Virus record (IMG/VR): IMGVR_UViG_3300020438_000149 | Location: 1-31,865 of that record | Length of the DNA stretch: 31,865 nucleotides | Source: a virus | Reading direction: 5' to 3' (one strand) | Part shown: positions 3,764-17,019 of the stretch, one piece after another | Position numbering within the stretch: the stretch's first letter is position 1 | Layout of the letters: every line of letters begins with the position of its first letter | The notes under the pieces: generated by a model | What the model was told of the DNA's origin: nothing | The model's input: only the letters and a program-made list of their open reading frames with translations | The model's database searches: none | Translations under genes and position numbers: made by a program

Positions 3764-6700
3764 TTAAATTCCATAACCGCTAGTGTAGTATGATGAAGCC
3801 CTACTGCCCGGCTCCCTAGAAAATCCCGGAACATCCACTGGAGCACGCTCATCATTTGATGGAACAACCAACTCAAGGTTCTGAATACCATCGTTAATCT
3901 GAGACAACAAATCGTTTCTTGCTACATCTGATGGAGCGTCCATAGTAATGAAATCAGTCATAACTTGATTCAGGTCAAAGTCCTCTCCAAATCCGCCAGT
4001 GGCTGCAATGTTCTTTATGTACTCCATGTCAAACTCGCCTGCTTGCATCTGACGATCAACGCCACCGAGCATTCGCATGTCTACACCTGACGATACCATG
4101 TTGTTTTTGAACGCCTTTTGGAATGTTTCGTTTTGAGTAATATCCCCACCATCAATATACTGATTAAACGCATCAGCATCAGTAAAGAAGTCACCAGAAC
4201 GGCGACTCATAGCAGTCATCAATCCTTGCCGAGAAGTCAAACTCTCATCAATCGCCGCAATTCCAGCCTCTCCACCGCCAGCACCCTCGTAAACGCCTCT
4301 CAAAGTAGAAGCGTCAACACCGTACTCTGCACCCATCTGACCAAAGTAGTTAGCCTTAGCAGTATTGATAGTTCCCTGAATCAAAGACTGTTTAGCCACA
4401 TCTCCACCGGAAAGGGCGTCTAGGTTTTCTTCAATTTCAAAAATACCTGACAAAGCACCAAGGTCGGCGCTCATACCAGTTGAAACCTCATACGCAGCCA
4501 TAGAAGATATGGCATCAGAAATCATTGAGGTTGTTACTTCACCCGGTGCAGCAAACTGAAGTGCTTGTAAAGCAGCAGACGCTGAATCACGTCTCTCATT
4601 CTGACCCAACATGGAAGTTGATAAGTCAGGTAAGAAACCTTGGTTTCTATTCATTGGGTTTAGTTGTGACTGGAATATAAGTTCTAAGCCAAGGGCATTC
4701 AAAGACTCTTGAAGGTTGATTCCTAATGCATCAGCCATTCTAGTCACAGAGTCAGCACTAATGTTAAACGTTTCGGACAAATGTGCTACTTGCGAATCAA
4801 AGTTTTCGATTCTGGTTTCTAAACGTTCAATAGCCCCATCTGCCTCATCTAACAACTCTGGTAACCGATCAAATACGGTGTCTTTATCAAACTTTTCACC
4901 AATAATACCAAGTTCTTGCAACATGTCCGTAGCGGCTTTGAACTCTTCAGTGTCCCTACCTACAGTTTCCGCACGCAGTTTTTCTGCTCTTGATTTATTG
5001 TGAGTAAACCTTGTTCTTCGTTTAATTTCTTCTTCAGTAAACTTTCTTTTACCACCAGCAGTAACAGCAGCACCGAGAGTACTTCTTTGATTTGTCAAAG
5101 CCTCAAGTTCACTCCGAGTATCACCGATACCTGTCGTCATGTCCAAACCAACATTGGCAAGAGTATCTAGGTGCTTATCAAGTGCTTTTTCGGTAGCCTT
5201 CTTAATTTTATTACGTCCAATGAATCCAGCAATACCGGAAGCGATTGCGCCAACGGCTGCACCAACGGCTGCACCTACTGGACCGCCGACAGCAAAACCA
5301 GTCATAGCGCCACCGGCCATGCCTGTAAGCATTCCACTAGCACCGCCACCTGATTGGTAAGAACTCAGTACACCACCGGCACCAATGCCTAAACCGGCTA
5401 GACCCATCATTGCTGCTGGGCCACCGCCTTTAAACATCCCTTTCATTCCTGCACCTTTTGGTGCAGACCTAGCAGAGCCTAAAAGACCGCCAGACATAGC
5501 GAAACCACCAGCGGCACGAGCAAATGCCATAGCGCCCCTACCTCTACCAGCCATTGCTTTGAAGCCACTTTTTCCACCGGGTCCGCCAGTAAACATCAGG
5601 CCAGCACCAAGCAATCCTATGCCACCCATACCGCCACCCATGGAAATAAACGCCAATACTCCAGCGAGTGTTTCGGCAAGAACACTGACAACAGGGGCAA
5701 GCATAGTCAAACCGTCAGCCAAAGCGCTGACAACATTAGGAAGTTGCTCCAACACAGGAGTGATAGCGTTCAGAATTTTACCAAGAGCAGGAATCAACTC
5801 TTCACCAATGCGGTTTAAAGTTTCAGACACCCGACCAATATTAGCAAAGAAACCAGACTGGCCTCCAGAAAGCAAATCAAACAAGCCACCAAAAACTCTA
5901 CCAATAGACGCACCAAACTCTTTAAAGCCTTCAGCGTTATCAACAACTAACTTTCTGAAAGACTTAAACAGTCCTCTACCTCCGGCAGTGTCACCCATGG
6001 CTCTAAACATGTCAATCACGACGTTAGCGGCAGGTTCCATTTTCTTTAACCCATCGCCAATACTTACAAAGAAATCACGAACAGCCCTAAAGAAGCCAAC
6101 AAAGTTTTCACCCATTGTTTTAACATCTTGGATGTGGTCATTAACGTTATTCCTAATGAATGCCATCGTTTTTTCAATAATCGTAACAAGAGAAGGAGCA
6201 AATGAGTCAGCACCAAACTTCTGAATGATGCCCATCATTCCCAACAAATCGTTCCGAATAATCTGACCAATCTGTAAGAAAGCATCACGGAATGGGCCAA
6301 GCATAGGCTCACCAAAATCTGCGAACATGGATGTTAAACCAGCAAACTCCGTTTTAAGAGTTCCAATAAAAGTTCTAGCCATGTCATTACCCAAGCCAGC
6401 AAAACCGGCAGAGGTAGCGCCACCGCCACCAACCACGCCTCTCATCCCAGACATGGTTGATACACCTTCAAGAGAACCAGTCCTAAAGCCAGCCGACTGC
6501 TTAATAGCAGTTCGTGCAGCACCAACGTCTTTACCTGCCAAAGCATTAGCCAAACTTTGTGCGGCTTTAGCGTCACCACCAGAAAGATTAAAAATCTGTC
6601 GAACTAAAGCGTTTTGGTTTCCACCAATACCACCACGAGCAAGTGTTCCAGTTATAGCAGAAGTTGCCTCACCGCCAAGTAAGCCACGCATCTGTGTTGA

Positions 6701-7201
6701 AAGACCTCTACCAAGCCGACCAGCCTGCTGCCGTCCACTCATTCCGCCACCAAAATTAGCAGCCATTTGAACTTCACTAAACTGTCGCATAGCAGAAGCA
6801 GCCACCGCTAAACCAGTAGCAACCGCTGCCGCAGTAACCGACAAACCTTTTAATGCAATGTTGTACAGACTCACCGCCGCTCTACCAGTGATGAGTGCAG
6901 CCTTAACACCAAGCAAAGCAGTAGCAAACAAAGCGACTTGACCAGCAAGCGCAATAAAAGAAAACTTACTTAAAGTCATCACGAACTTGCCAAGAGCCAT
7001 CGTTACACGCTTTAGAACATTACCAAATCTACTAAAACGCTTAGCCACTCGATCTAATCCACGATCCATATCTCTCGTGGAACGATTAAGAGATTTATTT
7101 CTGTCATCAAGCGCTTTTAGGCGTTTTTCAATAGCAAGAAGGTCTTTATTGATGTCAGCATCAATATCAACCTTTATTACTACTCTCTCTTCAACAGCCA
7201 T
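3764..7201 (-). CDS. Tail tape measure protein
   Basis: 1145 aa and the longest gene of the tail module. It has a charged, coiled-coil-prone N-terminus (residues 1-65), then hydrophobic helices (about 75-145) and several Gly/Ala-rich hydrophobic stretches in the middle (around 510-690, e.g. GPVGAAVGAAVGAIASGIAGF), followed by a mostly helical, charged C-terminal third. This composition and its place after the tail chaperone are diagnostic. Tape measure length sets tail length at about 0.15 nm per residue, which predicts a tail near 170 nm. A GAGG ribosome site lies 7 nt before ATG 7201. A terminator-like hairpin lies immediately upstream, so the gene may be expressed at a reduced level. No peptidase motif was recognised. 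Confidence 0.92.
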   Translation of the reverse strand: MAVEERVVIKVDIDADINKDLLAIEKRLKALDDRNKSLNRSTRDMDRGLDRVAKRFSRFGNVLKRVTMALGKFVMTLSKFSFIALAGQVALFATALLGVKAALITGRAAVSLYNIALKGLSVTAAAVATGLAVAASAMRQFSEVQMAANFGGGMSGRQQAGRLGRGLSTQMRGLLGGEATSAITGTLARGGIGGNQNALVRQIFNLSGGDAKAAQSLANALAGKDVGAARTAIKQSAGFRTGSLEGVSTMSGMRGVVGGGGATSAGFAGLGNDMARTFIGTLKTEFAGLTSMFADFGEPMLGPFRDAFLQIGQIIRNDLLGMMGIIQKFGADSFAPSLVTIIEKTMAFIRNNVNDHIQDVKTMGENFVGFFRAVRDFFVSIGDGLKKMEPAANVVIDMFRAMGDTAGGRGLFKSFRKLVVDNAEGFKEFGASIGRVFGGLFDLLSGGQSGFFANIGRVSETLNRIGEELIPALGKILNAITPVLEQLPNVVSALADGLTMLAPVVSVLAETLAGVLAFISMGGGMGGIGLLGAGLMFTGGPGGKSGFKAMAGRGRGAMAFARAAGGFAMSGGLLGSARSAPKGAGMKGMFKGGGPAAMMGLAGLGIGAGGVLSSYQSGGGASGMLTGMAGGAMTGFAVGGPVGAAVGAAVGAIASGIAGFIGRNKIKKATEKALDKHLDTLANVGLDMTTGIGDTRSELEALTNQRSTLGAAVTAGGKRKFTEEEIKRRTRFTHNKSRAEKLRAETVGRDTEEFKAATDMLQELGIIGEKFDKDTVFDRLPELLDEADGAIERLETRIENFDSQVAHLSETFNISADSVTRMADALGINLQESLNALGLELIFQSQLNPMNRNQGFLPDLSTSMLGQNERRDSASAALQALQFAAPGEVTTSMISDAISSMAAYEVSTGMSADLGALSGIFEIEENLDALSGGDVAKQSLIQGTINTAKANYFGQMGAEYGVDASTLRGVYEGAGGGEAGIAAIDESLTSRQGLMTAMSRRSGDFFTDADAFNQYIDGGDITQNETFQKAFKNNMVSSGVDMRMLGGVDRQMQAGEFDMEYIKNIAATGGFGEDFDLNQVMTDFITMDAPSDVARNDLLSQINDGIQNLELVVPSNDERAPVDVPGFSREPGSRASSYYTSGYGI

Positions 7202-7214
7202 GTCGCCTCACTAC

Positions 7215-7261
7215 AAAAAAAGAACTGGGAACTTCTGTAACTATTGTACAGAAATTCCCAG
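7215..7261 (-). terminator. Rho-independent terminator between chaperone and tape measure genes
   Basis: On the minus strand, arms CTGGGAA-t-TTCTGTA and TACAGAA-g-TTCCCAG form a 15-position stem with one mismatch and a 7-nt loop, followed by TTC and seven T. It begins 8 nt after the stop of the frameshifted chaperone and ends 14 nt before the tape measure start. Confidence 0.8.
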
Positions 7262-7268
7262 CCCTAAA

Positions 7269-7466
7269 TCAGTAACCACCGCTTACATTTCTACGTTTTC
7301 TATCACGGTCAGCATGATCTTTGCTGAGTGCTTTTGCGCAGGCAACACGGATTAACCACTCGTTGTAGTCTGAATTTAATATTTCAACCGGATCTGTGTG
7401 AAACGCCTCGGCTAGTCGAGCCGCTGAAATAATCCGAACGTCACCGGCTAGTTCTTCAACTAGCCC
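7269..7466 (-). CDS. Tail assembly chaperone -1 frameshift extension (gpT-like half)
   Basis: In the -1 frame relative to the upstream chaperone gene, an open frame of 65 codons runs from the overlap to TGA at 7271-7269. It begins GLVEELAGDVRIISAARLAE and later contains DPVEILNSDYNEWLIRVA. It has no ATG, GTG or TTG codon, so it cannot easily be started independently. The -1 frame has an upstream TGA at 7493-7491, which confines the shift to 7490-7460. The gpG/gpGT arrangement before the tape measure gene is conserved among long-tailed phages: the short form and the fusion coat the tape measure protein during tail assembly. The fused product would be about 239 aa (7984-7269). I infer the frameshift; the slippery codon is not certain. 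Confidence 0.8.
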   Translation of the reverse strand, partial: GLVEELAGDVRIISAARLAEAFHTDPVEILNSDYNEWLIRVACAKALSKDHADRDRKRRNVSGGY

Positions 7467-7478
7467 TGAGTAGGGTCC
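7446..7478 (-). promoter_or_regulatory. Candidate -1 frameshift signal: slippery CCCT plus hairpin
   Basis: The zero frame reads GAC CCT ACT CAG GGC TAG. A perfect 8-bp hairpin (GGCTAGTT, loop GAAG, AACTAGCC; 7465-7446) overlaps the stop codon. It starts 6 nt after CCT, where a tRNA could re-pair on CCC. That spacing matches known -1 stimulators. An alternative is a slip from GGC to GGG with TAG in the A site. Confidence 0.65.
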
Positions 7479-7984
7479 TCTGCGTCCACATCATCGCCAT
7501 ACCCAGCATAATCCAAAACCTTCAAAGCAACTGACTCAAGATGTGGGTCAATCGCATAGAAAGCACGAATTGCATCAGGTAATGGGCGATCAGTATTAGT
7601 CATCTCCATGATTACTGGAGACGCAAAAGTAATAGCATTACCATCGTCATCTAGCACCAGTGAATTATTGAAATAAATTCCTGTAACTGTCTGACCTACA
7701 ACATAGCAAGAAAACTTAATTGAATCAAGTTCGTCTGTCTTTCGGTTTGTAGAGTTTCGTCGCCAAGCCTTCAACTGATCGTTAGAAATATTTGGTGAAA
7801 ATGTCACAGAAACACCCTTACGTTCAGGAACTGCAATCTCAATATCTGCACGAGTTACTTCACGAGCAATCTCTTCTTTCAATTGATCAAGAACAGTAAC
7901 CTTTTGGGTTTTCTTTTTTGGTGCGGGTGCCACTTCATCCGATGGGGTAGAAGCAACTTCTAAAATTTCATCATTAGTACTCAT
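7460..7984 (-). CDS. Tail assembly chaperone, short form (gpG-like)
   Basis: 174 aa. It has a Pro/Ala/Lys-rich N-terminus (residues 1-30), then a compact domain with SNDQLKAWRRNSTNRKTDELDSIKF and ending DAIRAFYAIDPHLESVALKVLDYAG. Its place directly before the tape measure gene, its size and the -1 extension identify it as the chaperone that keeps the tape measure protein soluble and recruits tube subunits. The start ATG lies 7 nt downstream of a -10 box (TATCAT) with a consensus TTGACA 18 nt further up. The nearest purine-rich motif is about 14 nt from the ATG, too far to act as a ribosome site, so the mRNA is probably leaderless. The promoter overlaps the end of the endolysin gene. Confidence 0.8.
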   Translation of the reverse strand: MSTNDEILEVASTPSDEVAPAPKKKTQKVTVLDQLKEEIAREVTRADIEIAVPERKGVSVTFSPNISNDQLKAWRRNSTNRKTDELDSIKFSCYVVGQTVTGIYFNNSLVLDDDGNAITFASPVIMEMTNTDRPLPDAIRAFYAIDPHLESVALKVLDYAGYGDDVDAEDPTQG

Positions 7985-8021: not shown

Positions 8022-8756
8022 CTAGTCAACGAGTCTGGCCCAAGTATTGGGACCAACTACACCATCAACAACTATATCTTCATCCTTCTGGAACTGGCGA
8101 ACAGCACGATCAGTCATACGACCAAAATCGCCGTCTACACCAGAATATTTCTTAGGACGGGTTGAAAGTTTATATCCATTCTTATCTAAGAGTTTCTGTA
8201 AGAACTCTACAACAGGACCCTTTGCCCCTTTACGAAGCGTAGTTTTGATCGCTGCGCCAATAAACTCAAACACAGAAGCCTGCTCAGACTTAACCGAAGC
8301 AGCCTTAGGAAGTTTCTTGTCTTTCTCTACAGGGAACCAGTTCATCTTTGTTCCGCTTACACGGCAAGGCTGATGGTGCCACCACTCAGAACGTACTGTT
8401 TTAACAATACCATACTCAGAAGCGATAGCATTAACCTGCGTTGTTGTAAGCCCTTTACCCACGATTCTAAAGTCCACTGCATAGCCATAACCATCAAATT
8501 TAGGTTGGCTCATATGGTAAGACCCTTGGAACCCTGCACCGTTTACTCGATCTGGGTTTGCGGCCAAATTGAACCCCGGACGGCGACTCTTGTACCCGTC
8601 ATAAAGGTACTTTTGCTGTTGATACGTTCTAACGCCAGAAGAAACAGAAACTTTGCCTTTGATTCGTGGGTCTGTAAAGAATGCTTCAAGTCTCTGTTTA
8701 AACTTTGGATGCAGGTCTTTAATGTTGACCCTGCTTGATACTGTTGGGATAGTCAT
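8022..8756 (-). CDS. Endolysin: M15-family peptidase with peptidoglycan-binding domain
   Basis: 244 aa in two domains. Residues 1-140 form an M15 (VanY/D-Ala-D-Ala carboxypeptidase or L-Ala-D-Glu endopeptidase-like) zinc peptidase. It has SSGVRT with Arg43, zinc ligands His81 (SYH) and Asp95 (GYAVD), and Glu124-Trp-Trp-His127 (EWWHH). Between His81 and GxAxD there are more residues than in the usual HxxGxAxD pattern, an insertion of about seven. Residues 173-243 are a PG_binding_1 domain (RKGAKGPVVEFLQKLL, DGDFGRMTDRAVRQFQ, VDGVVGPNTWARL). It would cleave cell-wall peptide at lysis. It lies between tube and chaperone genes, with its own promoter and a terminator just upstream, so it can be transcribed apart from the tail genes. 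No signal peptide is visible; export would need a holin or host route. Confidence 0.88.
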   Translation of the reverse strand: MTIPTVSSRVNIKDLHPKFKQRLEAFFTDPRIKGKVSVSSGVRTYQQQKYLYDGYKSRRPGFNLAANPDRVNGAGFQGSYHMSQPKFDGYGYAVDFRIVGKGLTTTQVNAIASEYGIVKTVRSEWWHHQPCRVSGTKMNWFPVEKDKKLPKAASVKSEQASVFEFIGAAIKTTLRKGAKGPVVEFLQKLLDKNGYKLSTRPKKYSGVDGDFGRMTDRAVRQFQKDEDIVVDGVVGPNTWARLVD

Positions 8757-15063: not shown

Positions 15064-17019
15064 TTATCGAATTGGGCAGGCGCCTGTTGCGCACTCTTCG
15101 TCAAAGTCATCATCACTCATAATCGTAGAACCAGTCAGTTTTTCGCCCAAAGGTGCTGTTGTTGAAAGAACGTTTTCATAGTCTTCCCTTGTAAGTTCAC
15201 CCATTGGAGCCTGATCAAATCCATGCTCACTGTGTAGTAAGAAAGACACAGACTTCATTTCAGACCAATGCTCTGCTAGATACTCTCTGATTACATCTAG
15301 TTCATGGCTACGGTAATACACCGTTACCGAAATAGCGTTATCTGCCCAAACTTTCTGAAGTTTTCTAACCAAATCCATCTGCTCAATAGCAGTCATATCT
15401 TCAGCAAGAATTGTTCCTTCTGGGAAAGCGCATGGGAACTCAACTACTACCGTCCTGTCATCCTCTGTGCCATCAAAGTTTCTCAGAGGCTCTACATAAA
15501 AGCCTTTACTCTTGCAATAATTTACAAGAACATCTGAAGATGCCATCCGCATTCTCTTAACAAAATACTGGCTAAACGCTGGATGCACGCCGGGTGTTAC
15601 ACCGGGCAGTAGGCTCAATGTACCTGAAGGCTTAATAGTTGTAAGCCGAACTGACTCTGGCCAACCACGATGCGCAGACCACTCTGCATCAAACTCACGC
15701 AGAGCAACATATGCTTCATCAAGCCAGTCCACTTTATCCATAGCCTGTGTAACACCAGTTACCCCAAGGCCCAAACGCATATTCTTAGATGTAATCTTAT
15801 CAGATGCTGGGTCAAGGTAAGAAAGTGCTGAAGTTGCTTTTTGTACCTTATACAGGAGTCTTGCAACATCAATCAATTCTTCTGGCGAGTCTATCATGGG
15901 CAAATACAACTCAGACAAGTTGCATGATTCTCTATTGGCCAACGGGATCTCTGCGCAAGGGTTAACACCGACAATAGACGGATCAGGGCGCTCTTCACCC
16001 ATACGCCCGAACTGTCGAGAAGCCTCTAGATTAAAGAAACCGTAAGGCTCGCCGTTCCCCTTGTAACCTTCCCAAATCGTCTCAGGCATGTTCTGCATTT
16101 GCTCAGGTGACACAAATACTGTGTTGTTTGACATCGCACGCTCAATAGGAATGTCTCCCAAGTCCCAGCGCTTTGCCATTAAGTAAGCCTCGTCATCAAG
16201 ACTACCTACAGCAATCTCTGCTGAACGACGAACGTTTCCAGCAACAACAATAGAGCCAATGATATTCATGCAGTCAAGAACTTCAACAGATGTCATTGTT
16301 CTCCCGATAGCACCATCAAGAACTTTACAAATCTTTTCTACACCAGAAATCAAAATATCAGGCCCAGAGGCTGTACCGCCAAAGGTCTTAATTGGGACAC
16401 CGGCAGAACGAACAAGATGCGTAGCATAACTCATTTTTCGTGGGTGGTCGTCATCTCCCAGATAGCACTCAAAAACCTTGCGAATGAGTTCACCCCAACC
16501 CTCTCTTGTGTCAGGGACAATGAAGTCAGAATCATTAGCATCCTGATGCTCAACCCATGCTGAACGCACAGTGCCAAGTCTTTCCGGCTGGTCACACGAA
16601 AACCCTACACCACCACCAAGCATCAACCGCTCAACAGACCATGAAAAGTCCGTGGGCTTTTGGATATCAACAAACCAGCAGTTCACTAGGCTGTCACCAC
16701 CCAGTCGCTTATTGTTGGGTGTGCCAAGTTGCCACAGCATGCGCCCAGCAACACACCCCTTGAGGTTAAAAAGATAATCGTATAGTCGAATAGCCTCATC
16801 TTCAGAAAGCCCTGCACCAATACTCTGTGCTCCATTGACTACACGCTGAACAGTCTCATGCCATTCTTCGGTGCGTTCAATAACATCGCTGTTGCCCTCA
16901 AATATAGGGCGAGCATAAGTTCGCTTATAGGTCACATAACCTAATCCATTGAAACCCCAAGGAGGCATTTTGTCCTCGTAGGTTTTAGCGTGATCGTCTG
17001 AGATGAGGAACGATTCCAT
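15064..17019 (-). CDS. nrdJ: Adenosylcobalamin-dependent (class II) ribonucleotide reductase
   Basis: 651 aa, somewhat shorter than the monomeric Lactobacillus leichmannii-type enzyme (~740 aa). It reduces ribonucleotides to deoxyribonucleotides for phage DNA synthesis, using coenzyme B12 to form the thiyl radical. Visible active-site residues are Cys114 (NCWF), the radical Cys355 and Glu357 in NPCAEIPL, Cys366 in CNLSEL, the GGGVGFS loop (135-141) and TTIKPSGTLSLLPG (460-473). The C-terminal pair Cys643/Cys648 (CATGAC) is the swinging dithiol that re-reduces the active site, so the protein looks complete and active. An AAGGAG site precedes ATG 17019. A promoter with an embedded palindrome and a 5' UTR hairpin lie upstream. 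I assign the RTPR/NrdJ family from motifs; the subtype is less certain. Confidence 0.93.
   Translation of the reverse strand: MESFLISDDHAKTYEDKMPPWGFNGLGYVTYKRTYARPIFEGNSDVIERTEEWHETVQRVVNGAQSIGAGLSEDEAIRLYDYLFNLKGCVAGRMLWQLGTPNNKRLGGDSLVNCWFVDIQKPTDFSWSVERLMLGGGVGFSCDQPERLGTVRSAWVEHQDANDSDFIVPDTREGWGELIRKVFECYLGDDDHPRKMSYATHLVRSAGVPIKTFGGTASGPDILISGVEKICKVLDGAIGRTMTSVEVLDCMNIIGSIVVAGNVRRSAEIAVGSLDDEAYLMAKRWDLGDIPIERAMSNNTVFVSPEQMQNMPETIWEGYKGNGEPYGFFNLEASRQFGRMGEERPDPSIVGVNPCAEIPLANRESCNLSELYLPMIDSPEELIDVARLLYKVQKATSALSYLDPASDKITSKNMRLGLGVTGVTQAMDKVDWLDEAYVALREFDAEWSAHRGWPESVRLTTIKPSGTLSLLPGVTPGVHPAFSQYFVKRMRMASSDVLVNYCKSKGFYVEPLRNFDGTEDDRTVVVEFPCAFPEGTILAEDMTAIEQMDLVRKLQKVWADNAISVTVYYRSHELDVIREYLAEHWSEMKSVSFLLHSEHGFDQAPMGELTREDYENVLSTTAPLGEKLTGSTIMSDDDFDEECATGACPIR

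Follow-up and report, generated by a model that had tools for sequence, protein, structure and literature searches.

A putative programmed -1 ribosomal frameshift at an invariant C_CCU tetramer in a phage tail assembly chaperone gene

Background

The -1 frameshift between G and GT of phage lambda is conserved in dsDNA tailed phages, according to the work of Xu et al. (2004) as cited in a review (PMC5009743). Gordonia phage GMA6, a relative of the phage described here, is annotated as having a chaperone frameshift, and Gordonia members have already been described in this way (PMC4524720). The tail chaperone -1 frameshift is thus in itself an already known system. A separate body of work concerns tetramers of the form Z_ZZN. 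With a strong pseudoknot downstream, six such tetramers, C_CC.U among them, show at least fourfold the background in E. coli and span 0.26 to 5.6%; tetramers alone are barely active (PMC4066793). The search rule of the same study places a hairpin 4–10 nt past the motif, with G-C as the first pair and a stability of at least 7.6 kcal/mol.

Gene arrangement and sequences compared

The stretch of DNA analyzed here, referred to as the window, is the whole of IMG/VR virus record IMGVR_UViG_3300020438_000149 (31,865 nucleotides). On its minus strand this 31.9 kb record carries the genes of a contractile-tail set, which encode tail sheath, tail tube, endolysin, chaperone and tape measure. As in phages of the G/GT type, two overlapping frames sit between the tail tube and tape measure genes, and the first of them matches known tail assembly chaperones. 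The features of the overlap are as follows.

7460..7984, minus strand: tail assembly chaperone, zero-frame product of 174 aa with a probable lambda G-like role (PHROG 5088, E=2.8e-19)
7491..7493, minus strand: TGA in the -1 frame, the upstream limit of the shift window
7472..7475, minus strand: predicted slip site C_CCU, the last C of GAC and codon CCT (Pro171), assigned from its invariance in relatives and as a Z_ZZN tetramer active in E. coli (PMC4066793)
7460..7462, minus strand: zero-frame stop TAG, within the 5' arm of a hairpin
7269..7472, minus strand: -1 frame extension after the predicted slip, 67 sense codons from TAC (7472-7470), with stop TGA at 7271-7269
3764..7201, minus strand: downstream tape measure gene, identified by PHROG 167 (E=1.2e-5) and by position; its ORF starts at 7201

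An endolysin-like gene with a peptidoglycan-binding domain (8022-8756, minus strand) separates the tail tube and chaperone genes, and its position differs from that in the Gordonia and Arthrobacter relatives. The gene for a B12-dependent (class II) ribonucleotide reductase (15064-17019, minus strand) is found inside the structural gene region. A search for tRNA genes in the window returned none, and a search of genome contigs for relatives also returned none.

Searches with the chaperone first identified 34 close marine relatives. Wider searches added phages of Gordonia, Arthrobacter and Brevibacterium, whose chaperones are 18–30% identical, and further IMG/VR contigs. Removal of duplicates left 62 sequences, comprising 30 marine (the window included), 25 Arthrobacter-type, six Gordonia and one Brevibacterium; these 62 lineages share ancestry and are therefore not 62 independent events, a limit that does not affect the contrast with neighbouring columns.

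The -1 frame extension

The first-pass annotation of this DNA had proposed that the 174-aa gene is continued by a start-less -1 frame to just before the tape measure gene, with the shift falling within 7490-7460. Both proposals hold. The -1 frame opens at 7490, directly after the TGA at 7493-7491, and runs for 73 codons to the TGA at 7271-7269, 64 of them beyond the zero-frame stop, which itself ends at 7460. Neither ATG, GTG, TTG nor CTG was found in the window's extension, the one sequence checked for start codons. A shift at the predicted site would give a fusion of 171+67 = 238 aa.

The extension is homologous and open across relatives. In all 62 distinct sequences the -1 frame stays open for 53–69 codons past the zero-frame stop, and the first 50 of these codons hold no stop in any of the 62, whereas in the 30 marine sequences the remaining two frames contain 104 and 221 stops. 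Homologues with an extension closed by stops, which had been named as grounds for abandoning the proposal, were looked for, and the frame is open in every homologue. Differences among the marine extensions are distributed 30/15/55% over positions 1/2/3 of the -1-frame codons, and this weight on the third position indicates that protein selection acts in the -1 frame. Extensions from different clades align from the proline of the slip codon onward and have a common core, DP...L...R.A.

Several relatives carry the extension in their records as a separate protein, not as a frameshift product (Cantare gp23, Abba gp17, Zartrosa gp18 and Hanem gp48). In the Arthrobacter phage EastWest, gp19 (L049, 1658-1840) is annotated in the +1 frame, where it overlaps the true -1 extension.

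The slip site

The 3' end of the zero-frame ORF (7984-7460, minus strand) reads GAG GAC CCT ACT CAG GGC TAG. A comparison with homologous phages for a conserved site, as the first-pass annotation had recommended, found C_CCT in 62 of 62 sequences, always in the zero frame and within the overlap, as expected of a Z_ZZN site. Codon 171 is thus invariably CCT with a preceding C. The codon ahead of it is GAC in 61 sequences; Brevibacterium phage Cantare has AGC, and there too the C before CCT is kept. Pro171 is one of only five invariant residues among chaperones down to 18% identical, and the remaining conserved residue columns all use several synonymous codons, unlike CCT. This codon accounts for 49% of proline codons in the marine clade, 11% in the Arthrobacter-type phages and 13% in Gordonia phages. 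The invariance of CCT may come partly from the -1 frame, in which its T is the first base of a Tyr, Phe or Ser codon; this may account for CCC not serving as an alternative.

The codon after CCT is free to vary (ACC, ACG, ACT, ATT, ATG, CAC, CAG, TTG, TTA). Only the Gordonia and Brevibacterium phages carry the canonical heptamer C_CCU_UUR. A tree of the tube and chaperone proteins groups Gordonia with Brevibacterium (support 94), so that one change suffices for the difference between heptamer and tetramer, the tree being unrooted. A canonical X_XXY_YYZ heptamer was sought in the window and is absent, as the two tRNAs cannot both re-pair at either G_GAC_CCT or C_CCT_ACT. The earlier description of the site as non-canonical is therefore correct. 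The suggestion that went with it, that the mechanism may be unusual, does not stand, since the site fits the described Z_ZZN class and sister phages have C_CCU_UUR.

Stop codons in the -1 frame narrow the position of the shift. A TGA lies one codon ahead of CCC in many marine relatives, and in Gordonia phage DalanDe it abuts CCC, so that the shift in that phage must occur at CCT or later. The CCCT that had been put forward as a sequence that could slip is, by comparison of relatives, raised from a tentative candidate to a near certainty as the slip site. In-frame C_CCT is not avoided in the window's genes (27 seen, 25 expected) and thus cannot be very slippery alone, which fits the weak activity of tetramers alone in E. 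coli.

Slow termination after Asp-Pro is mentioned in a review (PMC5009743), and the near-invariant Asp-Pro at this site may add a pause; we offer this only as a lead. The Shine-Dalgarno-like GAGGA upstream, beside CCCT, was considered and rejected because it is not conserved (relatives have GAAGAC or GCAGAC). A +1 shift was likewise rejected, as the +1 frame of the window closes within a codon or two.

The downstream hairpin

The first-pass annotation had also noted a perfect 8-bp hairpin with a 4-nt loop over the zero-frame stop, 6 nt past CCCT, and this structure is present.

7446..7465, minus strand: hairpin GGCTAGTT-GAAG-AACTAGCC, beginning 6 nt past CCCT, -11.2 kcal/mol

All eight pairs are Watson-Crick, and the hairpin (7465-7446) encloses the TAG at 7462-7460, which is the fourth codon past CCT in every marine and Arthrobacter-type relative. 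Perfect 8-bp stems with loops of 3–8 nt occur at about eight distinct places on the minus strand of the window, and we estimate the chance of such a stem starting 4–10 nt past a given point at about 0.002. With its spacing of 6 nt, G-C first pair and 11.2 kcal/mol, the window's hairpin falls within the search rule of PMC4066793; those of several relatives do not.

The stability of the hairpin was compared with that of recodings that preserve the extension protein and the zero-frame stop. By this test 21 of the 30 marine sequences, including the window (P=0.01), have an unusually stable hairpin (P<=0.025); two relatives with a weaker hairpin are borderline (L101, L105). Across the marine clade 86.6% of cells are paired at this hairpin, compared with at most 48% when the pairing is slid. 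One of the eight pairs shows compensatory changes from G-C to A-U, in four sequences, and these two results lend the hairpin moderate support. Taken together, the comparisons indicate a genuine 8-bp hairpin that is under selection in marine phages, though it is not universal.

About nine of the 30 marine relatives have a weak near hairpin or none. In seven of these (L025, L059, L060, L068, L089, L101, L105) the wider 64-nt region is more stable than recodings (P 0 to 0.044), and its fold uses the same 5' arm as the near hairpin; in L015 and L033 the wider fold does not differ significantly from recodings. A longer pairing of the 5' arm with CTAGCC or CAGCRGCCC, 40–50 nt downstream, is possible in relatives whose near hairpin is broken. 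As a clade-wide helix it shows weak or no covariation and was rejected. An RNAalifold consensus in which the slip CCC pairs with GGG was also set aside: it comes without compensatory change and probably reflects the invariance of two blocks. In this pairing, which is available to marine relatives (7478-7462, minus strand, in the window), the slip CCCT meets an AGGG 4 nt on, and it cannot form together with the downstream hairpin. A search of Rfam near the slip site gave three hits, all below threshold.

Outside the marine clade the picture differs. The mean z for excess structure is -1.83 in marine sequences and -0.47 in the Arthrobacter-type phages, where it is mixed; no excess downstream structure is seen in the heptamer-bearing phages of Gordonia and Brevibacterium (mean z about 0), and neither Cantare nor many Arthrobacter-type phages have selected structure there. 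The near hairpin is thus confined to most of the marine clade. By this comparison the slip site is the ancient, invariant part of the signal, and the probable stimulator is clade-specific.

Proposed mechanism and alternatives

Given this arrangement, we consider it very likely, with a probability of about 0.9 on the evidence of the sequences compared, that the chaperone gene contains a programmed -1 ribosomal frameshift of the G/GT arrangement at C_CCU. Most ribosomes would read GAC CCU ACU CAG GGC UAG and terminate to give the 174-aa chaperone. A smaller fraction would move back one base at C_CCU, where tRNA-Pro would leave CCU and re-pair with the overlapping CCC, and would then read UAC UCA and onward to 7269 to give the 238-aa fusion. 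Re-pairing would be needed by one tRNA only: in the window and most relatives GAC to NGA and ACU to UAC cannot re-pair, which makes this a Z_ZZN tetramer site. The slip would most likely occur while CCU is in the A site or is being translocated to the P site, and the 6-nt spacing, measured with CCU taken as the motif's final codon, corresponds to the geometry expected for such a slip. The hairpin 6 nt downstream probably acts as the stimulator in marine phages. By homology with lambda G/GT (PMC5009743), coating of the tape measure protein is the expected role of the short form, and the longer form should in addition recruit subunits of the tube; in the fusion the chaperone part would do the coating and the extra domain would probably do the recruiting.

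Of all the explanations considered, a slip of tRNA-Pro from CCU to CCC is the one that fits all lineages. It is improbable that the ribosome instead undergoes classic tandem slippage or shifts at another spot in the 31-nt shift window, such as GGC_TAG, with CCCT kept by two-frame coding only. GGGCTA is invariant in the 30 marine sequences and both frames code there; however, GGGC is absent outside the marine clade, its GGC bases are accounted for by the hairpin arm, and tRNA-Gly on GGC re-pairs poorly to GGG. The shift window of DalanDe holds only CCT, TTG and GAT, and GAC is kept in 61 of 62 sequences even though GAT would preserve the zero-frame Asp. Decoding of a doublet by a non-cognate tRNA, in which tRNA-Thr reads just the CC of CCU, would lead to the same -1 frame with Thr replacing Pro, and this chemistry is known from MS2, where E. 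coli tRNA-Thr acts in this way at CCN codons (PMC5009743). Such decoding requires neither the C before CCU nor the U, both of which are invariant in 62 of 62 sequences, and we regard it as very unlikely.

We give just as little credence to the idea that the -1 ORF is a separate gene with its own initiation, or with reinitiation past the zero-frame stop, even though the records of several relatives list it as a hypothetical protein (Cantare gp23, Abba gp17, Zartrosa gp18). The conserved part of the extension already begins at the slip codon, ahead of the starts that those records annotate, and the window's extension lacks all four start codons sought. Least probable of all is that the frames are joined through transcriptional slippage or through an error of sequencing or assembly. 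Polymerase slippage needs more than a run of three C residues. The window is a single metagenomic record, but the arrangement is identical in 62 distinct sequences, isolate genomes among them, and by this comparison an error of sequencing or assembly is refuted.

Structures at the start of the tape measure gene

A stem of 7–22 bp is present in all Arthrobacter-type, Gordonia and Brevibacterium relatives examined; its 5' arm begins 2–11 nt past the stop of the -1 extension (in EastWest it overlaps the stop by one base) and its 3' arm falls inside the tape measure ORF, with the start of that gene bracketed between them. The stem is located 0–105 nt past the extension stop in L040, L049, L036 and other non-marine relatives. 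Its arms are wholly different between lineages, with complementarity kept. In an arm-swap test of 21 sequences less than 75% identical position by position, own arms score a mean of 12.2, a value that drops to 6.5 when arms are swapped (0 of 20,000 permutations) and to 6.0 in control stretches. In Cantare and EastWest, but not in GMA6, it is the longest perfect stem with a 20–100 nt loop in 50 kb. Many Arthrobacter-type phages have a likely ribosome-binding site inside the 5' arm. An Rfam search with the stem matched no family. Phage TM4 was dropped as a comparison for the tape measure start because the long ORF that follows and overlaps gp16 is an annotated endolysin.

Most marine relatives, the window included, have a terminator-like hairpin soon past the extension stop in place of this bracketing stem.

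7221..7265, minus strand: terminator-like hairpin with a U tract (T7), located past the -1 extension stop and ahead of the tape measure start

Its 14-bp helix has 99.4% of cells paired in 11 relatives (0 of 500 shuffles), and four of the 14 pairs are changed on both sides in these relatives. The conserved TAGAATA/ACAATA in its loop could also be a -10-like element.

The extension stop is reached only by frameshifted ribosomes, and the simplest idea is therefore that tape measure expression is coupled to frameshifting. A ribosome completing the fusion would open the stem or block the terminator, so that one slip event would give one fusion chaperone and permit tape measure synthesis. We put forward only tentatively, as a somewhat doubtful hypothesis, that the frameshift in this chaperone's phage family also sets the amount of tape measure protein; the structure may instead be a plain terminator or an mRNA-stability stem. 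If the coupling is true, a stem past the extension stop would explain how chaperone, fusion and tape measure stay in proportion.

Comparison with known frameshift systems

The locus has in common with lambda G/GT the order of tube, chaperone, -1 extension and tape measure, the -1 direction, and a short start-less C-terminal extension. However, its slip site is the tetramer C_CCU where that of lambda is a heptamer, it has a contractile-tail gene set and a PHROG 5088 chaperone, and its marine versions have a hairpin over the zero-frame stop. Lambda's tape measure gene H starts inside T, which would couple those two genes more directly.

The +1 sites of Listeria phages PSA, A118 and A500 (CCC_UGA, CCC_UCC) are also located in phage structural genes and move tRNA-Pro between CCC and CCU, but in the opposite direction (+1, CCC to CCU) and in other genes. 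The Z_ZZN tetramers, represented by A_AAG in IS1222 and the E. coli set of PMC4066793, are similar in that one tRNA re-pairs from ZZN to ZZZ and in being weak alone and aided by structure 4–10 nt downstream, with C_CC.U among the six active ones. The tetramers that PMC4066793 names as common in IS elements are different: A_AA.G, U_UU.[U,C] and A_AA.A. We did not find a natural -1 site consisting of a bare C_CCU, or family-wide conservation of one, in the open-licence literature searched. The program PRFect, going by its published -1 motif names, seems not to look for bare tetramers (PMC10885494). Considering this list and the extensions deposited as hypothetical proteins, in one case in the wrong frame, current annotation probably under-represents such sites.

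Also close are Gordonia phage GMA6 and the Bendigovirus/Chidieberevirus phages, which have a homologous chaperone (26–30% identity) and extension, with C_CCU at the homologous codon and a frameshift annotated in several records. They differ in having the canonical heptamer C_CCU_UUG and no selected downstream structure that we could find. Together with the window and its relatives they form, within a single homologous gene, a natural series with the C_CCU half fixed and the following codon free. Such a series separates the requirement for one tRNA from what two tRNAs add.
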